Source: Phycisphaerales bacterium (GTDB taxonomy: Bacteria > Planctomycetota > Phycisphaerae > Phycisphaerales > SM1A02). From it: a stretch of DNA of 64,000 bases. The stretch is from positions 124,001 to 188,000 of the forward strand of contig JAKVBU010000008.1 of assembly GCA_022446885.1 (NCBI GenBank), in the 5' to 3' direction. Numbering within the stretch: position 1 is the first letter of the stretch; each line of letters starts with the position of its first letter. This document shows, in pieces, positions 605 to 10,458 of this stretch. A program made the position numbers and the translations under genes. Below the pieces are notes generated by a model. The model was not told the DNA's origin. It was given only the letters and a program-made list of their open reading frames with translations, and did no database searches.

Positions 605-2992
605 ATGGCACAGTTGGTGGCCCTCTTGCTGTGGCTGGGCCTGGTCGTGTGTCCGGCAATCGGCTTTCTGCTGAGCGCCCCAGGGGCGACCCACGATGTC
701 GCGCTCCATGAAACGTCTTCGCTGGTGGGGCCGACCCTGCTTTGGATCGGTCTGGTCTCGCTTGGTGCAGTAGGGGTGGGGCGGTGTGTAGCGCCTGCAC
801 TGCAAGGTCGTGGGCGATTGCTTGTGGCCCTCTGTCTTGCTTCAGCATTGCTTCCCACTGCGGCCGTGTTCTGGACCTGGTACGCCTTGCTGGATGCCCA
901 GAGTGTGATCGGGGCCGCTGCTATCGAAGGTGGATGGACATGGCTCCTGCGGCGAGCCGTGTTGGCGGCGGCCCTCATCAGCACGACCTGGCCGCTGGCG
1001 GCGCTTCTGCTGGCGGGCATGCCGCTGCGAGGTCCTGATTCGTTGCGTTCACTGCAGCGTCTGGATGGCGTCTCGATCATTGGGCGGGTCAAAGCGGCGA
1101 CGGTCCGAGAGTGGCCCGGCCTGTTGGCTGCCACCGGTCTTTGCGCCGCGGCGGTTTCGATGGCGACGACCGCATTTGATCTTGCCGCGGAGGCGACGGC
1201 CTCGACTGAGTTGCGAGCTCGCTTGGCTTTGGGCGGGGGCCTCTCTCAGGTGGCCGGCGTGTGGGCCCTCAGCATGGCGCCGGCGCTCTTTGGCGCGATC
1301 GGTGCCTGGTGGGCGATGAGTCGCCGCCGGTATCAGGGCCAGCGCACACTCGTGCCTCAAGGGAAGCGAAGTCGAATCTGGCCGGCGATCGTCGCCCTGG
1401 CGCTGACGCTGGCATTGCCACTTGCAACCCTCCTCTGGTTGGGCGTTGCCCCTGACATGGGCATTGTGAGGGCGACGATCGAGGCGGTGATTCGGGCGGT
1501 GGGTGTCGGATTGCTCGCGGCGGCGACGGTGTTCGTGTTCGTGCCGCTGCTGCGTCAGGGCCGGTACCAACGGCTGGTCTCGGTTGGCGCCTTGATCTGG
1601 CTGACTGCGGCGCTGCTTCCACGAGCCTGGGTGGCGGCCGGGTGGGGTCGGTTGCAGCAGTGGCTGCCGGTGGAGTTCGCTGATCTGGGATTGGGCCGAG
1701 CGGCCGCGCTGCTGCTGCCAGCGGGCGCCATTGCCTTGCTGGTCTCCGCCATGATCGTTCGCACCCAGCCACGAGCGCAGCGAGACTTGCGGGCGCTGGA
1801 TGCCCCGCCGTGGTGGCACCTCGATCCGACAATGATCAAAGGCCTCATCAGCGTGATCGCCTTGGGGGCGACGTGGAGTCTGTTTGCGCCTGCGGTTGAG
1901 GCTCGATTGGCGCCGCCTGGCCAAGGGCCGCCGTTGGTGAGCCGCCTCGTTGACGCGATGCACTACCAACGGCCCGAGTCGGTGGTCACCGTGCTGTGGG
2001 CCGTTGCGTTGTTGGCGATTGCAGGGGGCCTGATCGCTGCTTGGCGGCCGATGCGCAGCGCGATGTACCAGGTGGGTCCGCTGTCGCTGCTCATCTGCAT
2101 GGGTGTGTGGGGAGGCGGTTGCGCGATCGAGCCCGAGTCAGAGGGAACGCCACCGCTGCAGGTTCGCCATCTTGTTGGTGGACCCGGAACCGATCCCGGG
2201 CGTTTCGTCACCCCGCGTGCCGCCGATGCAACAGGACACGCAGTGGTTGTAGTTGACCGCAGTGGCCGGCTGCAAAGATTCGAGTGGTCGTCAGGTGAGG
2301 CCAAGGTCGTTCAGCATGTTGATCTACCGCTGAAGGGAAATGGGTTTCCCACGGGCGTGCATCTTGGCGACGATGGTCATGCCCTGATTGCCGACACCCA
2401 TGGGGGTCGGGTGCTCCAGGTGACGCCCACGGGTGAGATTACGACCGTGGTTGAAGCCGAGGCCACCGGGCTCGTCAGCCCCACCGACGTTGCCCCCGGG
2501 CCCGAGGGGCTGATCTATGTGAGCGAGTACGGCAGCGTCGATCGCATCCTCGTGTGCTCACCCGATGGAGCGTTGGTGCGAGTGTTGGGCCAATCGGGGG
2601 GAGCGCCCGGCGAGTTTCGACGCCCGCAGGCTCTGGCCTTTGATGCCTCCGGTGGGCTGTGGGTCGCAGATGCCTGCAACCACCGGCTGCAGCGATTGGA
2701 TCCGAAGACTGGTGAGGCATTGCAGATCATCGAAGCGGGGGTGCGCTATCCCTACGGACTGGATGTGCTGCCCAGCGGCGATCTGCTGGTGTCCGAGTAC
2801 GGCGGCAACGTGGTGCGACGGATTGATCCTGAGACCGGGCGATCACGGGTTTGGGGCGGGTGGGGCGATGGTGTCGGGCAGCTGCGCACACCATGGTCGG
2901 TGGCGATCGATCATGATGCGCAGGTGGCCTGGGTCGTGGACACTGGACACGATCAGGTGGTGGCCGTCGATCTGGAGGCGTTGGCTTGGTAA
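605..2992 (+). CDS. Iron-type ABC permease fused to a C-terminal NHL beta-propeller
   Basis: This 795-residue protein has two parts. Residues 1 to about 480 form a polytopic membrane domain like FbpB-type binding-protein-dependent permeases. Degenerate EAA-loop regions are visible near residues 145-175 and 405-430, and the late motif PPGQGPPL precedes HYQRP as in iron permeases. A further hydrophobic stretch ending GGGC at about residue 506 looks like a lipoprotein signal. Residues about 515-795 are NHL repeats with recurring GxVxVxDxxxxRLQ-like blades. ATG 605 is chosen because it starts the first membrane helix; the frame is open further upstream inside the previous gene. It lies 2 nt after the binding-protein stop, and its own stop overlaps the next start (TAATG). 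An internal ATG at 2051 could start a separate NHL lipoprotein. The fusion is continuous in the sequence; what the propeller senses is unknown. Confidence 0.75.
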   Translation: MAQLVALLLWLGLVVCPAIGFLLSAPGATHDVALHETSSLVGPTLLWIGLVSLGAVGVGRCVAPALQGRGRLLVALCLASALLPTAAVFWTWYALLDAQSVIGAAAIEGGWTWLLRRAVLAAALISTTWPLAALLLAGMPLRGPDSLRSLQRLDGVSIIGRVKAATVREWPGLLAATGLCAAAVSMATTAFDLAAEATASTELRARLALGGGLSQVAGVWALSMAPALFGAIGAWWAMSRRRYQGQRTLVPQGKRSRIWPAIVALALTLALPLATLLWLGVAPDMGIVRATIEAVIRAVGVGLLAAATVFVFVPLLRQGRYQRLVSVGALIWLTAALLPRAWVAAGWGRLQQWLPVEFADLGLGRAAALLLPAGAIALLVSAMIVRTQPRAQRDLRALDAPPWWHLDPTMIKGLISVIALGATWSLFAPAVEARLAPPGQGPPLVSRLVDAMHYQRPESVVTVLWAVALLAIAGGLIAAWRPMRSAMYQVGPLSLLICMGVWGGGCAIEPESEGTPPLQVRHLVGGPGTDPGRFVTPRAADATGHAVVVVDRSGRLQRFEWSSGEAKVVQHVDLPLKGNGFPTGVHLGDDGHALIADTHGGRVLQVTPTGEITTVVEAEATGLVSPTDVAPGPEGLIYVSEYGSVDRILVCSPDGALVRVLGQSGGAPGEFRRPQALAFDASGGLWVADACNHRLQRLDPKTGEALQIIEAGVRYPYGLDVLPSGDLLVSEYGGNVVRRIDPETGRSRVWGGWGDGVGQLRTPWSVAIDHDAQVAWVVDTGHDQVVAVDLEALAW

Positions 2993-5850
2993 TGCTGCAA
3001 CATCCTGTGGCCCTGATACTGCTGGCGGTTGTGCCTCTTCTGGCATTTGCCGCGATGCGACTGGCGCCACGGATCGGTCGAGCGCGGGCATGGACCTCAG
3101 CTGGTATCCGGTCTCTCCTGGTGGGGCTGTTGGCGCTGGCGCTCGCCCAGCCGCTGCTGCCACAGGGCTCACGCAACGTCACCGTGGCGGTCATTCTGGA
3201 TCGCTCACGGAGCGTGTCCGAGCCTGCACTTGATTCGGCCGTGCAATGGGTGCAAGAAGCGCTTCAGGGGCAGGAGCGTCAGTCAGAAGATCGGGTGGCG
3301 TTGGTGCACGTGGCAGCGGAGGCCATTCCCGGCGCAATGCCATCGCCCGAAGCGCAGGTGTCACTTGATATCCCGCCCGGGCTGCGAGATGCCAGCAGCC
3401 TGGCTGGCGGCATTGAACTGGCCCGGGCCATGCTGCCGCAGGACACACGCAATCGACTCTTGTTGATCTCGGACGGACTCGACACCGAAGGCACCTTGTC
3501 GGCGGCACACTCGAGCGACACGCCCATTGACGTACTCGTGTTGCCAGTTGACCGACCACGCGATGTGCGTATCGAACGCATCAGTGCGCCGGCCCGGGCG
3601 CCCGAGGGTGGCGTCATCGAAATGGACCTGGTGGTGCACGCCGCTGCGCCGGCAAGTGGTCGGATTGTCATACGACGCAACGGAACACCAGTGCCCCTGG
3701 GCCCCGATCAACAGGTTCAAGGACTGTCGCTGACCTTGCCCAAGGGAACAACCGTGCTGCCACTGCAGGTGGTGGCCGGCGAAGCACTCACTCGTCTTGA
3801 GGCCAGTTGGATTCCCGATGTGCGTCAAGGCGATGCCCCGGAGAACGATCACGGGCGGGCCATCGTGCTGTCGGCTCAAACTGGTCGGGTGCTTCTGGTG
3901 GGCACCGACGAGCGAGCGCTTGAGGGGATGTTGTCCTCGCTGGCTGGAAGTGGGATTGACGCCAAGATCGGAACGCCAGCGGATCTTGCACAGGGGGCTG
4001 CCTCGCTGGCGTCGATCGACGCGCTGGTGCTTGTCGATCTGCCCCGATGGGCGTTGCCAACACGCTTCGACACCTTGCTGGCCCGTTGGGTTGAATCCTC
4101 AGGCGGCGGCTTGCTCATGACCGGCGGCCATCAGGCTTTGGGCGCCGGAGGGTGGATTGGGTCCGACGTGGAGGGCGTGCTGCCCGTTGATCTGGAGCCG
4201 CCGGCCCAGCGGCAGATTCAACGTGGCGCCTTGGTGTTGCTGATGCACTCGTGCGAAATGGAGCGGGGAAACCACTGGGGGCGGGTAATCTGTGAGACCG
4301 CCATCGAGGCGCTCAGCAGCGCCGATCTGGTGGGCATCATCGAGTACAACCCCTCCAGCGGCAGACCGCACTGGCCTCTGGATCTTGCGCCGGCAGGCGA
4401 CAAGGTCGCCGCGTTGCAGGCAGCTGCCCGGCTCACGTTCGGTGACATGCCTGACTTCGCACCGTCCATGGAGGATGCAGTCGCGGCGCTTGAGGCGGCT
4501 GACGCCGGGCAGAAGCACATTGTGATCGTGTCGGATGGGGATCCTCAGCCTCCGTCGGTGGATCTGCTCGAGCGAATGCGCTCAGCGGACATTGCCGCAA
4601 CGACCGTGCTTGTAGGCGGGCATGGGCGAGCAGAGGACACCCTGCGCATGGAGCGGATCGCACGGTTCACCGGGGGCGAGTTTCACGATGTCAGGGACGC
4701 ATCCCAATTGCCCGGCATCATGATCGAAGCGGCGCAGCTGGCGACGCGTTCACTGGTACAGGAAGAAGTCGCACCGGTTGCAACAACCTCCGCCGCACCG
4801 GGCCCGCTGAAGGGAATCACGTTACCGCCACCGATTGATGCGTGGGTGGTGACGGCACCCCGCGATGCCCCTGCGGCAACACCGTGGGTGGTCAAGGGCA
4901 CACAAGGCGACGACCCGCTCGTGGCCTGGTGGCATCGAGGTAGCGGGCGTAGTGTCGTCGTCACCGTGCCCCCTGCGGCAGGGTGGACGCCCCAGTGGAA
5001 CAACTGGGGCGATCGGGATCGATTCTGGCAGGCGCTCGTGAGTTGGCTTCGTCCTACACCAGACGAGGGCGAGTGGGCCCTGCAGGCCCGCCAAGGCGAG
5101 GGGCCGCGTGTAGAAGTGACGCTCGAGGCGGCCAATGAAGCCACGCAGGATGTGCTGCCCGTCACCCGCTCGGTGGTGCTGGCCCCTGATGGATCGACTC
5201 GCATGTTGGACCTGCGTCCAACCGGGCCGGGCCGGGCCACGGGCGGGTTCGTCATGGACCAGCCCGGCGAGTGGGTGGTGGCGTCGGCTGTGGAAGGAAC
5301 TGATGGGGCAGGGCCGATTCAACTTCGAGCGGCGCTGGCTCAAGCCTGGCCCGATGAAGACCGCGCTTCCGTGGCCGACACTGCCGCCATGCACCGGCTG
5401 GCTCAGGCAACGGGCGGTCGCGTGCACGCCCTTGATGGTGATCCCCTCGAAGCGGCGCTCTTTGATCGAACAGGCCTCGATGTGCTCGTGGCTCCGTCGC
5501 CTTTGTGGCCTTGGCTTGTGATTGCAGCGGCGATCCTGCTTCCCATCGATGTCGCCGTTCGTCGTCTTGTGCTCAAGACCCAAGAGGGCACGATGATCAC
5601 AGTTGCCCCAACCCCTCGCGCCCAGGCCACGTCGAGCGATGGTTCACCGTCGCCTTCGACGCCGAGGGCTGCCGATCGGGCAGCGACATCGACGAACCAG
5701 CCTCCTGCGAGTTCCGAGTCGAAGCCTGTCGCGTCCGATCGAGTGGATGACCCCTCAGGTGCCTCTGAACAGGCTGACGAATCGAACGCCATGGACCGAC
5801 TTCGCGCTGCCCGCCGCCGCGGGCGTGGGCAGGAGGAGGACCTCTCATGA
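2992..5850 (+). CDS. Large membrane protein with two VWA domains (glutamine-amidotransferase-like family)
   Basis: A 952-residue protein. Two N-terminal membrane helices (about 5-25 and 38-55) are followed by a von Willebrand A domain with a metal-site motif DRSRS at residues 70-74. A central region includes a ThuA/GATase-like stretch (LLMTGGHQALGAGGW). A second VWA-like domain near residues 410-560 has VIVSDGDPQPP. One C-terminal helix comes before a Ser/Pro/Thr-rich tail ending in basic residues. Proteins of this layout commonly sit beside MoxR and DUF58 genes and are thought to form envelope-associated chaperone or assembly complexes. ATG 2992 shares one base with the preceding TAA; the next gene overlaps by 4 nt. 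The family is seen from architecture; the biological role is not established. Confidence 0.8.
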   Translation: MLQHPVALILLAVVPLLAFAAMRLAPRIGRARAWTSAGIRSLLVGLLALALAQPLLPQGSRNVTVAVILDRSRSVSEPALDSAVQWVQEALQGQERQSEDRVALVHVAAEAIPGAMPSPEAQVSLDIPPGLRDASSLAGGIELARAMLPQDTRNRLLLISDGLDTEGTLSAAHSSDTPIDVLVLPVDRPRDVRIERISAPARAPEGGVIEMDLVVHAAAPASGRIVIRRNGTPVPLGPDQQVQGLSLTLPKGTTVLPLQVVAGEALTRLEASWIPDVRQGDAPENDHGRAIVLSAQTGRVLLVGTDERALEGMLSSLAGSGIDAKIGTPADLAQGAASLASIDALVLVDLPRWALPTRFDTLLARWVESSGGGLLMTGGHQALGAGGWIGSDVEGVLPVDLEPPAQRQIQRGALVLLMHSCEMERGNHWGRVICETAIEALSSADLVGIIEYNPSSGRPHWPLDLAPAGDKVAALQAAARLTFGDMPDFAPSMEDAVAALEAADAGQKHIVIVSDGDPQPPSVDLLERMRSADIAATTVLVGGHGRAEDTLRMERIARFTGGEFHDVRDASQLPGIMIEAAQLATRSLVQEEVAPVATTSAAPGPLKGITLPPPIDAWVVTAPRDAPAATPWVVKGTQGDDPLVAWWHRGSGRSVVVTVPPAAGWTPQWNNWGDRDRFWQALVSWLRPTPDEGEWALQARQGEGPRVEVTLEAANEATQDVLPVTRSVVLAPDGSTRMLDLRPTGPGRATGGFVMDQPGEWVVASAVEGTDGAGPIQLRAALAQAWPDEDRASVADTAAMHRLAQATGGRVHALDGDPLEAALFDRTGLDVLVAPSPLWPWLVIAAAILLPIDVAVRRLVLKTQEGTMITVAPTPRAQATSSDGSPSPSTPRAADRAATSTNQPPASSESKPVASDRVDDPSGASEQADESNAMDRLRAARRRGRGQEEDLS

Positions 5851-6905
5851 ACGATGAGGCGTTGATCCAGGGGCCTGAGCGTGACCCTGCCGACGAAGCG
5901 GCGCTGGCCAATGCCCTGACGCAATTCAACGCCGGGTTGGGCGCATTGGCCGATGAGGTCGCACGCCACATCGCCGGTCAGAAGCCCGTGATTCGAGCGG
6001 TCATCTCGGCTTTACTCGCCGGTGGGCATGTGCTGCTGGAGGGCCCTCCGGGGCTGGGCAAGACCCTGCTGGGACGCACGCTGGCAGGGGCAACTGGGCT
6101 CAGTTTCGATCGCGTTCAATGTACGCCCGACCTGATGCCTGCTGATGTCACTGGAACCAACGTGCTGGTGCCCGACGCGAATGGGCACCAGCAATTGGTC
6201 TTTCGCCCCGGCCCGATCTTCGCCCAGATCGTGCTCGTGGATGAGATCAATCGGGCTGTGCCTCGAACCCAGTCGGCCATGCTCGAAGGCATGCAGGAAG
6301 GCACGGTCACGATCGGCACCCGCACCCATCAGTTGCCCGAGCCGTTTCTGGTACTGGCGACGCAGAATCCCCACGGAGATGAAGGCACATACCGATTGCC
6401 TGAAGCCCAGCGGGATCGCTTCATGGTGCAAGTGCGGGTGGAGCAGCCGCCCGCCGGGGTGCTGGCTCAGGTGATCGATCGAACCACCGGGGGGGAGGGT
6501 TCAACTGCTCGGGTGACTCGCCGACTCGCCGATGACTTCATTCCCAAAGCGTCCAGCTTGGCCTCGCAGGTGTATGTGGCAGGTCATCTGCAGCGATGGG
6601 TTGCCGACTTGATCGTGGCGTGCGATCGATCGAGCAAGGCCCCCCTAGCTCCAGTGGCCGACATGTTGGAACTGTGTCCGGGCCCTCGAGCGGGGCAAGC
6701 CATGCTCGCCATGGCCCGTGTGCAAGCGCTGGCCCAGGGTCGCACCGCCATTGGCCGGCGACACCTGAAGGCTGTTGCCGAGGCCTGCCTGTGCCATCGC
6801 ATGCAGTGTTCCCCCGAGGCGCTCGTGCGGGGTCTGGACGAACGCATGCTGGTGCGTCAACTGCTTGAAGGCGTTTCCGTGCCCGAACCTCAGGTGCAAG
6901 CATGA
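5847..6905 (+). CDS. MoxR-family AAA+ ATPase
   Basis: A 352-residue AAA+ ATPase of the MoxR branch. It has Walker A GPPGLGKT at residues 66-73, Walker B VLVDEIN near 129-135, the motif TQNPHGDEGTYRLPEAQRDR typical of MoxR proteins (sensor 1 and arginine-finger region), and a C-terminal lid. MoxR ATPases act as chaperones that activate or insert metal cofactors through VWA-domain partners. Such partners are encoded directly before (2992) and after (6902, 7840). The start ATG overlaps the previous stop (ATGA), so translation is probably coupled. Family assignment is strong; the substrate is unknown. Confidence 0.95.
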   Translation: MNDEALIQGPERDPADEAALANALTQFNAGLGALADEVARHIAGQKPVIRAVISALLAGGHVLLEGPPGLGKTLLGRTLAGATGLSFDRVQCTPDLMPADVTGTNVLVPDANGHQQLVFRPGPIFAQIVLVDEINRAVPRTQSAMLEGMQEGTVTIGTRTHQLPEPFLVLATQNPHGDEGTYRLPEAQRDRFMVQVRVEQPPAGVLAQVIDRTTGGEGSTARVTRRLADDFIPKASSLASQVYVAGHLQRWVADLIVACDRSSKAPLAPVADMLELCPGPRAGQAMLAMARVQALAQGRTAIGRRHLKAVAEACLCHRMQCSPEALVRGLDERMLVRQLLEGVSVPEPQVQA

Positions 6906-7843
6906 GCGCATCGGCGTACAGGTGGGGACAGTCTTCCCAGAGCGGGCCAACGAGTGTGGATGAATTGCTCGATCCGGCGCTGCGCAGCGCACTTGCTGGG
7001 CTGGACATCGAGGCGAGGCGATTGCTTGCCAGCCCACGACATGGTGAGCGTCGATCAACCCGTCGGGGCAGTTCCGTGGAGTTCGCTGACTTCAGGCCCT
7101 ACACACCCGGAGATGATCTTCGGCGGGTGGACTGGAACATTTATGCTCGACTCGACTCGCTCGTTGTAAAGCTGTTTCAAGACGAAGAAGACCTGCTGCT
7201 TGTTCTGGCAATCGATGCCTCGGCGTCCATGGACTTTGGAGATCCCTCCAAGCACCTGCTGTCTCGACAACTGGCGTTGGCAGCCGGCATCACGGCACTG
7301 GCAGCAGGACATCGGGTGCAGGCCCATGCCATCGGATCACCAGCGGCGCCAACCCGTGTGCTGCGAGGCCGCGGGGGCGTTGGCGCGTTGGGGCGGTGGC
7401 TGCTTGATCTGAAGGCAGATGGGAGCCTCGATGTCGCCGAGGGGCTGGGTACGTTGGGGCATCGAATCAGAGGGCGAGCGCGACTTGTAGCGATCACCGA
7501 TGGTCTGCAGCCTGGCGAGGCGTTTCCGGGTGCGCTTGCTGCACTGGGGGGTCGAGGCCACGACACCAACTTGATACAGGTGCTCTCGCCTCAGGAGTTG
7601 GCGCCCATGGCGACCGGGCTCAGTGGAGATCGGCGGCTGGTGGATGCCGAGACTGGGCAGGGGCCTTCGGTGAGTCTCACCGGAGCGATCGAGCGAGACT
7701 ATCTACGGCGGCTTGAAGCCCATGTCGAGCGACTGAGTCAGGCTGCCTTGCGCACCGGCGCTCGTCACATGTTGGTCCGCAGCGATGAGCCGCTCGAGTC
7801 ACTCCTTCGTCGGCGTCTGCGAGAAGCGGGGCTGCTGCGATGA
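6902..7843 (+). CDS. DUF58 domain-containing protein
   Basis: A 313-residue soluble protein. The DUF58 signature runs from FRPYTPGDDLRRVDWNIYAR (residues 64-83), followed by a VWA-like fold with the metal-site variant DASASM at 105-110. DUF58 proteins are regular partners of MoxR ATPases. The order MoxR-DUF58-BatA-like VWA here is the classic one. It overlaps both neighbours by 4 nt (ATGA), implying translational coupling and coordinated amounts. The role (MoxR adaptor or target) is inferred from context. Confidence 0.9.
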   Translation: MSASAYRWGQSSQSGPTSVDELLDPALRSALAGLDIEARRLLASPRHGERRSTRRGSSVEFADFRPYTPGDDLRRVDWNIYARLDSLVVKLFQDEEDLLLVLAIDASASMDFGDPSKHLLSRQLALAAGITALAAGHRVQAHAIGSPAAPTRVLRGRGGVGALGRWLLDLKADGSLDVAEGLGTLGHRIRGRARLVAITDGLQPGEAFPGALAALGGRGHDTNLIQVLSPQELAPMATGLSGDRRLVDAETGQGPSVSLTGAIERDYLRRLEAHVERLSQAALRTGARHMLVRSDEPLESLLRRRLREAGLLR

Positions 7844-9756
7844 CGATTGCCGCGCCATGGGTTGCACTTGTGCTGTTGAGCACGCTGGTGCCCGTCTTGC
7901 TAATGCTGTGGATGTTGAAGTTGCGTCGCTCGCGCGTGCGTGTTCCGGCTGCGTGGCTCTGGTCGGAGTCTCTTGAAGATCTACGGGCCCAGGTGCCATT
8001 CAAGAGACTGCGTTGGTCGATGCTGCTGGCGCTCCAGCTGATCGCCCTTGGGCTGCTGATACTTGCCGCGGCACGTCCGCGGGTGACGACAGATGACGGG
8101 CGAGGCGAACGAACAGTGCTGCTTGTAGACGTGTCCGGTTCCATGGGGACACGCGACGAACCTGGCGGCGAGCGAAGGCTTGAGCGGGTGCGCCAATCGC
8201 TGCGGGCAGCCGTCGATCGACTGCACCCGGGCGGATTGTTCAACTCCGACGCGGGCCGCACCATGCTCATCGCAGTTGGCGCCACGCCCCGCGTCGTGCA
8301 GCCGTTCACTTCGTCGAGGCAGGTGCTGCTGGCGGCGATCGATCAGATCGAGCGAACCGATGAGGCGGCCAGCATCGAGGGGGCGTTTGAACTGGCTCGG
8401 GCATGGGCTGCGGTACCTGACCCTGATGCCGTCGAGACGGCGGCCCCAGCCCCTGTGCGGCTTGAGCTCTTCAGCGACGGACAGATCGACGATCTGGAGA
8501 CAGCTGCAGCCACACTGCGCGAGTCGCTCTTGTTGCATCAGGTAGGAGATGAAGACACGGTCAATCGTGGGCTCGTGCAGGTTGGTGGACACCGCTTGCC
8601 AGAAGCGCCGCATCGGTTGCGTCCGTTCGTAACGCTGGAGGGGTGGGGGCTTGAGCCCGAGACCATCGACGTACGGCTGGCAGCCGACGGCGTGGGGGTC
8701 GCGCTTCGTCGGGTCGAGTTGCCAGCAGCCCGACTGGTCGATGACACCCTTGTGCCTGGCCGCATCGACGTGCTCTTTCCGCCAATCGACGCGCCCGATC
8801 ACACCCTGCTGAGCGCCCAACTGCTTCCTGCGGATGCACTCGATACCGACGACACGGCTTGGCGCGTGATTCCCCCGCCGGATCGGGCCCGTGCTGCGCC
8901 AGCCGGGGAAATCGGGCCGGTGCTCGCTCGGGCGATGTCCGCAGTGGACATGAAGATGACGACGCAGGAGCAGGCAGATCTGCTCGTTGGTGTGCTCGAC
9001 TCGCCTGTACGGCTGGGCGCTCGCCCCAGCCTGACCTTTGGAGCGCCTCCCGTTTCGGCTCATGTGGGCACTGCTTTGAGTGTCCGATCGCCTGATCGAG
9101 TGATCACGTCCGATCCCAGGCACCCGGTCACCGGGGGAAGCTCCTTGTCGGGATTGCGGGTGCAGGAGGCCGTCCATCTTCAGGTGAGCGACGAGGTGCG
9201 GACGTTGGCCGAGGGCCAAAATGGACCGCTGATTGTGGCGTGGCGTGAAGATGGCGTGCCACGTGTGCACGTGGCGTTCGAGATGGAACAGAGCGACTGG
9301 CAGATGCGTGAGGACATCATCACCTTCATGGTGGATGCCCAGGCCTGGCTGGCTGGTCGCAGCGACGAGCGTGATGACATTCGAGCCGGCGACACCATCA
9401 ACCTCGTGCTGCCTGGAGCGGTGGATTCGGTTGAGGTGCTGCACGCAGGCACGCAACTGGCAGTCTTGACGCCCCCGGATCCTTCACGAACACAGTGGGG
9501 GCCCGCACCACTGGCGGGGGTCTACGAGTTTCATTGGCAGAGCGGGGATGCTTCCGGGGTGGACAAGGTGGCTGTGGCCATGCCTGGCGCTGAGGCGGGG
9601 GATGTGCGAGGGCGCACACCCGATCTCAAGGCCAGCGCTGGAGATGTCGCCATCGTCGCTGCGGGCACAAGACAGATGCCGCTGTGGCCATTTGCCGTGG
9701 GCGTGGCCTTCGTCGTTTTGCTGATCGAGTGGTGGGTCTGGACCCGACGCCAATGA
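7840..9756 (+). CDS. BatA-like VWA domain membrane protein
   Basis: A 638-residue protein. The BatA-type N-terminus has a helix at 5-26, an amphipathic linker, a second helix at about 60-78, then a VWA domain with a canonical metal-site motif DVSGSMG at residues 97-103. The remainder looks like beta-rich extracytoplasmic domains. A C-terminal membrane helix (about 612-634) ends in RRQ. BatA-like proteins present a VWA domain at the inner membrane and cooperate with MoxR. It overlaps the DUF58 gene by 4 nt and is the last gene of the operon; the next gene is on the opposite strand. No terminator-like hairpin with a T-run was found in the 59 nt behind it. Confidence 0.85.
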   Translation: MTIAAPWVALVLLSTLVPVLLMLWMLKLRRSRVRVPAAWLWSESLEDLRAQVPFKRLRWSMLLALQLIALGLLILAAARPRVTTDDGRGERTVLLVDVSGSMGTRDEPGGERRLERVRQSLRAAVDRLHPGGLFNSDAGRTMLIAVGATPRVVQPFTSSRQVLLAAIDQIERTDEAASIEGAFELARAWAAVPDPDAVETAAPAPVRLELFSDGQIDDLETAAATLRESLLLHQVGDEDTVNRGLVQVGGHRLPEAPHRLRPFVTLEGWGLEPETIDVRLAADGVGVALRRVELPAARLVDDTLVPGRIDVLFPPIDAPDHTLLSAQLLPADALDTDDTAWRVIPPPDRARAAPAGEIGPVLARAMSAVDMKMTTQEQADLLVGVLDSPVRLGARPSLTFGAPPVSAHVGTALSVRSPDRVITSDPRHPVTGGSSLSGLRVQEAVHLQVSDEVRTLAEGQNGPLIVAWREDGVPRVHVAFEMEQSDWQMREDIITFMVDAQAWLAGRSDERDDIRAGDTINLVLPGAVDSVEVLHAGTQLAVLTPPDPSRTQWGPAPLAGVYEFHWQSGDASGVDKVAVAMPGAEAGDVRGRTPDLKASAGDVAIVAAGTRQMPLWPFAVGVAFVVLLIEWWVWTRRQ

Positions 9757-9815: not shown

Positions 9816-10430
9816 TCAGGCCGGATCCGGCATGCCCAGAAACTCGCGCATGTGCTGGTCGTAGGTTTCCGAGTCTTCGTCTCGTGAGAGATCAAGACGC
9901 AACTCATTGATGACCTTGGTGCCTTGCCCAATCCACTGAGACCACGTCTCCTGCGAGATGTGCTCGGCGATCCACTCGCCCTCGGGACCCTTGAAGGGCG
10001 GCCCTTCCAGCGGCGTGCCAGCTTGGCCGGTGCGAGCGCAGGTGAAACCGGTGTCGGTCGTTGCCGCCTGGGCGGCCTGTGCCTGCTGATCTTCATCAAG
10101 CGTCGGCACTTCACGTCCGAGCCCGAGGAGCGCTTCGCCCATGGCCTCCTGGGGCAGCCGATCACCTCGGGTGGCCGCGATACGCCAGCCTTCCTCGAGC
10201 GTGGCTGCAGCCTTGTCTGACCAGCCCGCCGCGATCATGGCCTCGCCACAGAGCTGCCAGGCCTTGCTCATGTCGCGATTGAGTTCAATGCAGCGTTCAA
10301 AGGCGCCGGCGGCTTCGGCCCCTCGGCCTGCCTGCAGCAGGGCCGAGCCAAGGCTGAAGTGGGCCATCTCGTTGTCGGGGTCCGCTTCGGCCATGTGCTG
10401 GAAGCGTTCGATGCGTTCGTCAATGGACAT
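9816..10430 (-). CDS. TPR protein fused to a YggX-like Fe(2+)-trafficking domain
   Basis: A 204-residue protein. Residues about 1-105 contain TPR-like helical repeats (DPDNEMAHFSLGSALLQAG, then AGAFERCIELN, then SKAWQLCGEAM). Residues about 129-200 align with YggX. Cys131 sits in a position like the conserved N-terminal Cys of YggX, followed by PPFKGPEGEWI, then HISQETWSQW and KVINELRLDLS, and a closing MREFLG. YggX proteins protect iron-sulfur proteins from oxidative damage and are suggested to traffic iron; free YggX is only about 90 residues. The TPR part could dock it to a partner (inference). The start has no Shine-Dalgarno but a TACCAT hexamer ends 6 nt upstream, so the mRNA may be leaderless. 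Confidence 0.8.
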   Translation of the reverse strand: MSIDERIERFQHMAEADPDNEMAHFSLGSALLQAGRGAEAAGAFERCIELNRDMSKAWQLCGEAMIAAGWSDKAAATLEEGWRIAATRGDRLPQEAMGEALLGLGREVPTLDEDQQAQAAQAATTDTGFTCARTGQAGTPLEGPPFKGPEGEWIAEHISQETWSQWIGQGTKVINELRLDLSRDEDSETYDQHMREFLGMPDPA

Positions 10431-10436
10431 CGGAGC

Positions 10437-10442
10437 ATGGTA
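10437..10442 (-). promoter_or_regulatory. Candidate leaderless -10 element for the TPR-YggX gene
   Basis: On the minus strand TACCAT is followed by exactly 6 nt and then the ATG at 10430. This would place the transcription start on the A of the start codon. No Shine-Dalgarno and no clear -35 are present. Confidence 0.5.
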
Positions 10443-10452
10443 TCGCCTGCCG

Positions 10453-10458
10453 TATCAT
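10453..10458 (+). promoter_or_regulatory. Candidate leaderless -10 element for dihydroorotate dehydrogenase
   Basis: TATCAT is followed by 7 nt and ATG at 10466. The hexamer overlaps an upstream in-frame ATG at 10457, which argues that 10466 is the real start. No Shine-Dalgarno is visible. It is divergent from the TACCAT element at 10437-10442. Confidence 0.5.

Follow-up and report, generated by a model that had tools for sequence, protein, structure and literature searches.

A planctomycete TPR-YggX fusion protein with four-cysteine forms and probable loss of putative metal ligands in one order

Background

Passages of two reports (PMC11078426, PMC1360075) tie YggX of Salmonella and Escherichia coli to oxidative stress and to the trafficking of Fe(II) and describe its Cys-7 as essential, a statement found in PMC11078426, including the title of a reference therein. 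A structural survey counts YggX, in its passage on the protein, among the treble clefs, though the solved homologs are without zinc (Kaur and Subramanian 2016, PMC4999995), and Table 2 of PMC2989944 gives an E. coli yggX mutant no greater sensitivity than the wild type to the redox cycler plumbagin. In E. coli, yggX neighbours mutY, which is a gammaproteobacterial feature. The iron name of YggX rests on one essential cysteine and on reports of Fe(II) binding. In the work of Osborne from 2005, YggX alone reportedly did not bind iron.

We analysed a window of 64,000 nucleotides from a Phycisphaerales bacterium, in which a first-pass annotation had described a protein that joins TPR repeats to a YggX-like domain. 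Both modules are known, and their combination, together with the four-cysteine forms described below, is apparently unpublished in the open-access literature: we found no paper there that joins YggX with tetratricopeptide, and no description of a four-cysteine YggX in the accessible text of the matches listed. Domain databases may list the architecture.

Results and discussion

The fusion protein of the window

The fusion gene occupies positions 9816..10430 of the window on the reverse strand, stop codon included, and encodes 204 aa from an ATG start that is consistent with the N-termini of its relatives. Residues 1 to about 106 (10113..10430, reverse strand) form a TPR domain of six helices, paired in the model as three hairpins, within which TPR_19 covers residues 31-86 at 32.2 bits against a cut-off of 25. 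A linker helix is predicted at residues 113-123 (10062..10094, reverse strand), in a stretch that varies among the relatives, and is followed by the YggX or Iron_traffic domain at residues 130-198 (9837..10043, reverse strand). The YggX profile search by which the annotation had proposed to refute its own claim returned a significant match, with PF04362 aligning these residues to profile positions 6-74 of 88 at 49.7 bits (E 3.3e-13, cut-off 27), and together with the TPR_19 score it bears out the fusion. The NCBIfam YggX equivalog, PRK05408, gives the protein 50.5 bits, below its cut-off of 74. A profile search of the window's genome, which is 97% complete, has this open reading frame as its sole PF04362 match, and hence the fusion is the only YggX-like protein found there by profile.

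The conserved cysteine and the INE-x-x-L motif that had been read from the sequence are both present, the former as C131 (10038..10040, reverse strand), which alignments place at YggX Cys-7, and the latter as I174-N-E-L-R-L179, within what the census described below identifies as the most conserved stretch, K172-V-I-N-E-L-R-L179 (9894..9917, reverse strand). When the C-terminal part was compared with PDB sequences at E up to 1, four of the 8 matches were significant, two of them YggX entries, one PA5148 and one a further Fe(2+)-trafficking protein; MHC chains at E 0.17-0.36 made up the remaining four. Structure prediction, which the annotation had called for, agrees with the profile: the model of the window protein (mean pLDDT 95.7) aligns with the solved YggX PA5148 (1t07) at a TM-score of 0.81 by target length, over 75 columns with 32% identity and E 3.3e-3, at rank 25 of a fold search in which TPR structures stand ahead of it. 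The pTM of the model, 0.81, suggests that the two domains have a fixed mutual placing.

The protein thus shares with YggX (PF04362; E. coli YggX, PA5148/1t07 and 2mzy) the fold, the W...INExxL core and a cysteine at the Cys-7 position. Unlike free YggX, it is fused to a TPR domain, it has 204 aa instead of about 90, its match ends at profile position 74 of 88, and it carries K172 where the free forms mostly have Met; many of its fused relatives have four cysteines and some have none.

Distribution of the fusion

To survey the spread of the fusion, as the annotation had asked, we searched three overlapping sets of genomes with PF04362. Matches were found in 59 of 61 genomes (the window's genome and 60 relatives); the sample from the class yielded 114 among 198 genomes, and that from the phylum 47 among 392, with 46 of the latter above the cut-off. 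The two close genomes that have no match are 72% and 80% complete. The searches gave 165 distinct matching genomes, of which the census takes 164 and leaves out one with a partial match under the cut-off (G296); it excludes 13 named MAG loci and two proteobacterial controls, keeps one of the two matches of G192, and counts two loci in one genome once. A YggX domain was called fused if preceded in frame by a TPR half scoring at least 118 bits on the TPR-half model, the HMMs of the census having been trained on family members.

By this definition, the fused form is present in 150 of the 164 planctomycete genomes, including all 69 matching genomes of the window's order, and a YggX without the TPR fusion is present in the other 14, none of which has a same-frame match to the TPR-half model. 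Distinct sequences number 130 among 170 loci, and 115 of these are fused. A further set (A1) consists of 58 rows picked by hand; Pfam models applied to 58 members at E 0.01 found Iron_traffic in 58 and TPR_8 in 56. The 13 MAG loci, found as relatives by sequence, are titled Phycisphaerales, Phycisphaeraceae, Phycisphaerae or Planctomycetota, and the two nearest are from Phycisphaerales, with 75-76% identity; by these titles, the window's order is presumably Phycisphaerales. Beyond the phylum, the search covered plasmid records: its 37 matches are free proteobacterial YggX or TPR proteins, none spanning 80% of the fused query, and in a second search of plasmid records the 30 of 39 matches listed have names or places that fit free YggX. 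The view that YggX is normally a free protein therefore fits those solved and proteobacterial members that this survey met; in the planctomycete clade, by contrast, the fused architecture is the norm.

Origin of the fusion

Small free TPR proteins, such as 2kat (BPP2914, 115 aa) and the planctomycete solo proteins, resemble the TPR half in length and ending and match its profile over nearly the full length. The planctomycete solos were found with the TPR-half profile as open frames of 105-149 aa, scoring 44-76 bits; unlike the fused halves, they lack a YggX domain and branch outside the fused clade. 2kat scores 60.8 bits over positions 9-107, a value that many designed and eukaryotic TPRs exceed. 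Solo proteins occur in 7 of the 10 fused genomes sampled, with an eighth at L093 449-788. The window's genome itself has a free small TPR protein (G000:C98:90118-90393, open frame 121 aa) with 60.2 bits on the profile of the fused TPR half.

In a tree of 50 of the 98 fused TPR halves (no family label contributing more than 4) and 17 solos, built on few columns, a branch with 91/95 support, recovered in 94% of 200 bootstrap trees, separates the fused halves from the solo proteins. One solo with a long branch, L240, joins the side of the fused halves but stays immediately outside their group. Because the fused halves form one clade apart from the free small TPR proteins, the fusion probably arose once. 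The first split within the fused group lies between members from other classes (f75, f88 and f94; 98/96) and those of Phycisphaerae (80/76, weak), and the window's order forms one clade (100/98). A tree of the whole fused proteins broadly tracks taxonomic grouping, many of its forks being weak, and we read these patterns as one old fusion passed on mainly by vertical inheritance.

The families with free YggX were considered in the same light. Family f22 (L033, L034, L039, L042, L143-L148, L192; all 8 matching genomes) and f100 (L061/L137; G404) have a free YggX with one cysteine and, in the five that were aligned, about 13 extra residues inserted between this cysteine and the W...NE core. Free YggX proteins at L056 and L057 (G357, G473) score more than 100 bits, far over the usual scores of the clade, and four-cysteine YggX domains without the TPR half occur in three genomes (L058/L132; L059/L133 in f82; L142 in f14). 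All seven f22 genomes sampled have solo TPR proteins, with 57-76 bits, mostly higher than the 44-64 bits in the fused genomes. A fission of the fusion in f22 is unsupported, since these solos group with the other solos in the tree.

Cysteine states of the YggX domain

An alignment of the YggX half of relatives outside the window's order first showed a pattern of four cysteines, CxxC...CxxC. Among the 150 fusions, in counts that are inflated by shared descent, 74 have all four cysteines, one (G171) has histidine at the second position with cysteine at the other three (CHCC), 53 have only the first cysteine, 20 have none and 2 have those at positions 1 and 3. All four are present in each of the 10 fused members from other classes of the phylum, in 47 of 48 from families f8, f9, f19 and f21 together, and in 17 of the 23 from f11, where 1 is CHCC and 5 have none of the four. 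No fusion of the window's order, out of 69, has the four-cysteine form: Thr occupies position 2 in 59, Ser position 3 in 49 and Thr position 4 in 66, while the first cysteine is replaced by Asp in 13. The window protein follows this pattern, with T134 (10029..10031), S159 (9954..9956) and T162 (9945..9947, all on the reverse strand) aligned in the census with the cysteines of the four-cysteine relatives at the places of ligands 2, 3 and 4, and C131 as the counterpart of ligand 1. The first cysteine is lost in 20 of the 150, namely in 13 of 14 members of f5 and f6, in 5 of 23 of f11 and in 2 of 38 of f1. The 14 free forms comprise 3 with all four and 11 with the first cysteine only.

The change at positions 2-4 is nearly all or none. 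That these three are gained or lost almost as a unit, and that the sole substitution seen amid three cysteines is His, is what a metal site predicts. A tree computed by a quick method from 98 of the 115 distinct fused sequences, the four cysteine columns having been removed, implies 4 changes between the four-cysteine state and the rest, of which its starred branches force at least two, with 33 of the 95 inner branches open. Because all fused relatives from other classes have four cysteines, loss in the window's order is the likelier direction; with these four-cysteine outgroup classes at the root, loss is also the shorter history, and hence more parsimonious than gain. This likelier direction applies to the fused clade, and canonical free YggX has a single cysteine as well.

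The cysteines vary, but one part of the domain does not. N175 and E176 are kept in all 150 fusions and all 14 free forms; K172 is present in 148 of 150 fusions, with Met at that place in 11 of the 14 free forms; L179 is present in 149 of 149 fusions in the set of that size and W166 in 96%, and both in all 14 free forms. Since the K-V-I-N-E helix is kept across all cysteine states, it is this helix, not the cysteines, that constitutes the constant part of the protein.

Predicted structure of a four-cysteine relative

The model of the four-cysteine relative L049 has a mean pLDDT of 92.1 and a pTM of 0.68, with a poorly predicted stretch ahead of the finger (block mean pLDDT 54). In this model, C127 and C130 lie between the short strands 125-126 and 133-134, C155 lies just ahead of helix 156-173, and C158 lies in its first turn. 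We take this placement to be the treble-clef layout. The secondary structure of L049 shows the knuckle, flanked by its two short strands, and the ligand positions at the helix start; these features are less sharp in the model of the window protein, which, unlike treble-clef zinc fingers with their four ligands, retains a single thiol, C131. The fold search with the L049 model gives TPR matches in every row among the matches listed, so that the lack of a zinc finger among them carries no weight, and the treble-clef assignment hence rests on the secondary structure, on the match of the window model to 1t07 and on the literature.

The TPR half of L049 aligns over about 100 residues with three-TPR domains at Z 14-16 and 10-26% identity, and resembles three-TPR peptide-binding domains and the SycD/PcrH chaperones. 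The shared three-TPR fold likens it to TPR adaptors and class II chaperones (SycD/PcrH, CHIP, Hop), but Z values of this size are often seen among TPRs and imply no shared function, and the likeness tells little about what the protein does.

Genomic neighbourhood

Ten neighbours of the gene in the window were followed across 77 loci, of which 66 have the fusion, and none is linked to it phylum-wide. At 10430-10457 of the window, the fusion gene stands head to head with pyrD (dihydroorotate dehydrogenase; PRK07259 299 bits, cut-off 269), their first possible start codons being separated by 26 bases; PRK07259 is presumably the model of the class 1B catalytic subunit. This arrangement occurs in 15 of the 77 loci, the window included, all in f1 and f2. 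The model of the iron-sulphur protein PyrK, PF10418, matches 5 of 41 genomes (the window's genome and 40 relatives), and the window's genome is not among them; a link to iron-sulphur chemistry through PyrD and PyrK is therefore unsupported there.

Downstream of the fusion gene and convergent to it, an aerotolerance-type cluster spans 2986-9756 of the window, with DUF58 and BatA/VWA identified by Pfam and a MoxR-like ATPase and a large VWA gene identified by reading; each of these genes lies near the fusion gene in 8-11 of the 77 loci. Other adjacent genes vary by family, among them lipid A acyltransferase (f8), MeaB, CNNM/CBS, GreA, NAD kinase and more, in a scan of 20 chosen neighbours. In f11, the genes directly upstream on the same strand (L117:4862-6703, L123:7654-9489, L114:4840-6717) encode proteins of 612-626 aa that are related to one another, with 34-38% identity; those of L117 and L123 were scanned and matched nothing in Pfam at 1e-5. 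Among the neighbours examined, which are partly annotated, no iron or oxidative-stress gene is common to the loci, and no regulator recurs.

What the protein may do

The explanation we favour, with a probability of roughly 0.6, is an old and mainly vertically inherited planctomycete two-domain protein, probably from one fusion, that began as a four-ligand finger, lost ligands in the window's order, and most likely serves as an adaptor. A small three-TPR protein would have fused once to a YggX-type domain, itself a treble-clef finger, and the early fused protein would have carried four putative metal ligands (CxxC...CxxC). Ligands 2-4 would then have been replaced in the window's order, mostly by Thr, Ser and Thr, leaving one thiol, as C131 here, or none. 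The metal, where present, may merely stabilise the finger and would be dispensable once the fold is stable without it. One partner may be bound by way of a peptide that lies in the groove of the TPR domain, and a second may be held by the YggX domain through the K-V-I-N-E-x-x-L helix. That the protein is a soluble adaptor with these two faces is a tentative proposal, for which we would give somewhat less than even odds.

The annotation had taken the iron-trafficking label as a function, in which case a true YggX would protect or deliver iron, Cys131 would be its working residue and the TPR domain would aim it at a client enzyme. That the TPR domain may direct the YggX domain to a target is plausible. 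The Pfam match, the YggX fold and the presence of C131 favour the iron reading, as does the position of the fusion as the sole PF04362 protein of its genome. So does the first cysteine, retained in the 53 fusions that lost the other three, a state that a purely structural role does not predict and that a redox or iron role does. However, the same cysteine, the counterpart of Cys-7, is gone in 20 of the 150 with the rest of the domain kept, and half of the fusions (75 of 150, the CHCC form counted, the four-cysteine form being the commonest with 74) have a four-ligand site that the window protein lacks; the PRK05408 score is below its cut-off, no common iron or oxidative-stress neighbour was seen among those examined, and pyrD offers no PyrK link in the window's genome. 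The plumbagin result in the table cited above argues mildly against YggX itself having a strong role in stress. Iron trafficking as the function of this protein is thus unsupported and, in our judgement, unlikely; it is a family name only, and the label should be distrusted for this lineage without tests.

A sensor of redox state or metal level is still less probable. The four-cysteine finger would free Zn or Fe upon oxidation and so alter TPR binding, with the window's order having mostly a single-thiol switch, and the near-unitary retention or loss of ligands 2-4, the lone thiol kept in 53 of 150 and the fixed placing of the domains suggested by the pTM would all fit; yet forms without any of the four cysteines persist in f5, f6 and part of f11, and no regulator recurs among the neighbours examined. 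An artefact, in which a sequencing error or a chimeric contig has joined two genes, is practically inconceivable, nothing in its favour having been found, and can be rejected, because the same reading frame is found in 150 genomes, with near-constant spacing in 149 of them, and the model is confident across the join.

Beyond the adaptor explanation favoured here lies a bolder one, which we consider doubtful: YggX may at its root be a degraded metal finger rather than a carrier of iron. The ancestral site with four ligands would survive in the planctomycete fusions, and Cys-7 of YggX would be all that remains of it. The fusion would then be an undescribed planctomycete adaptor whose work is done by the TPR groove together with the K-V-I-N-E-x-x-L helix, and the annotation "Fe(2+) trafficking" would be mistaken throughout the clade.

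Conclusions

The four-cysteine fusions lend sequence support to the inclusion of YggX among the treble clefs, a claim that has hitherto been based on structure. They also caution against transferring the iron label to planctomycete genomes. The fused proteins form a natural set in which the cysteine of YggX may be accompanied by three further candidate ligands, stand by itself or be missing, and through which its role becomes testable: the four-cysteine members would be expected to bind Zn or Fe tightly, and the members without cysteines to remain functional should the metal serve structure only.
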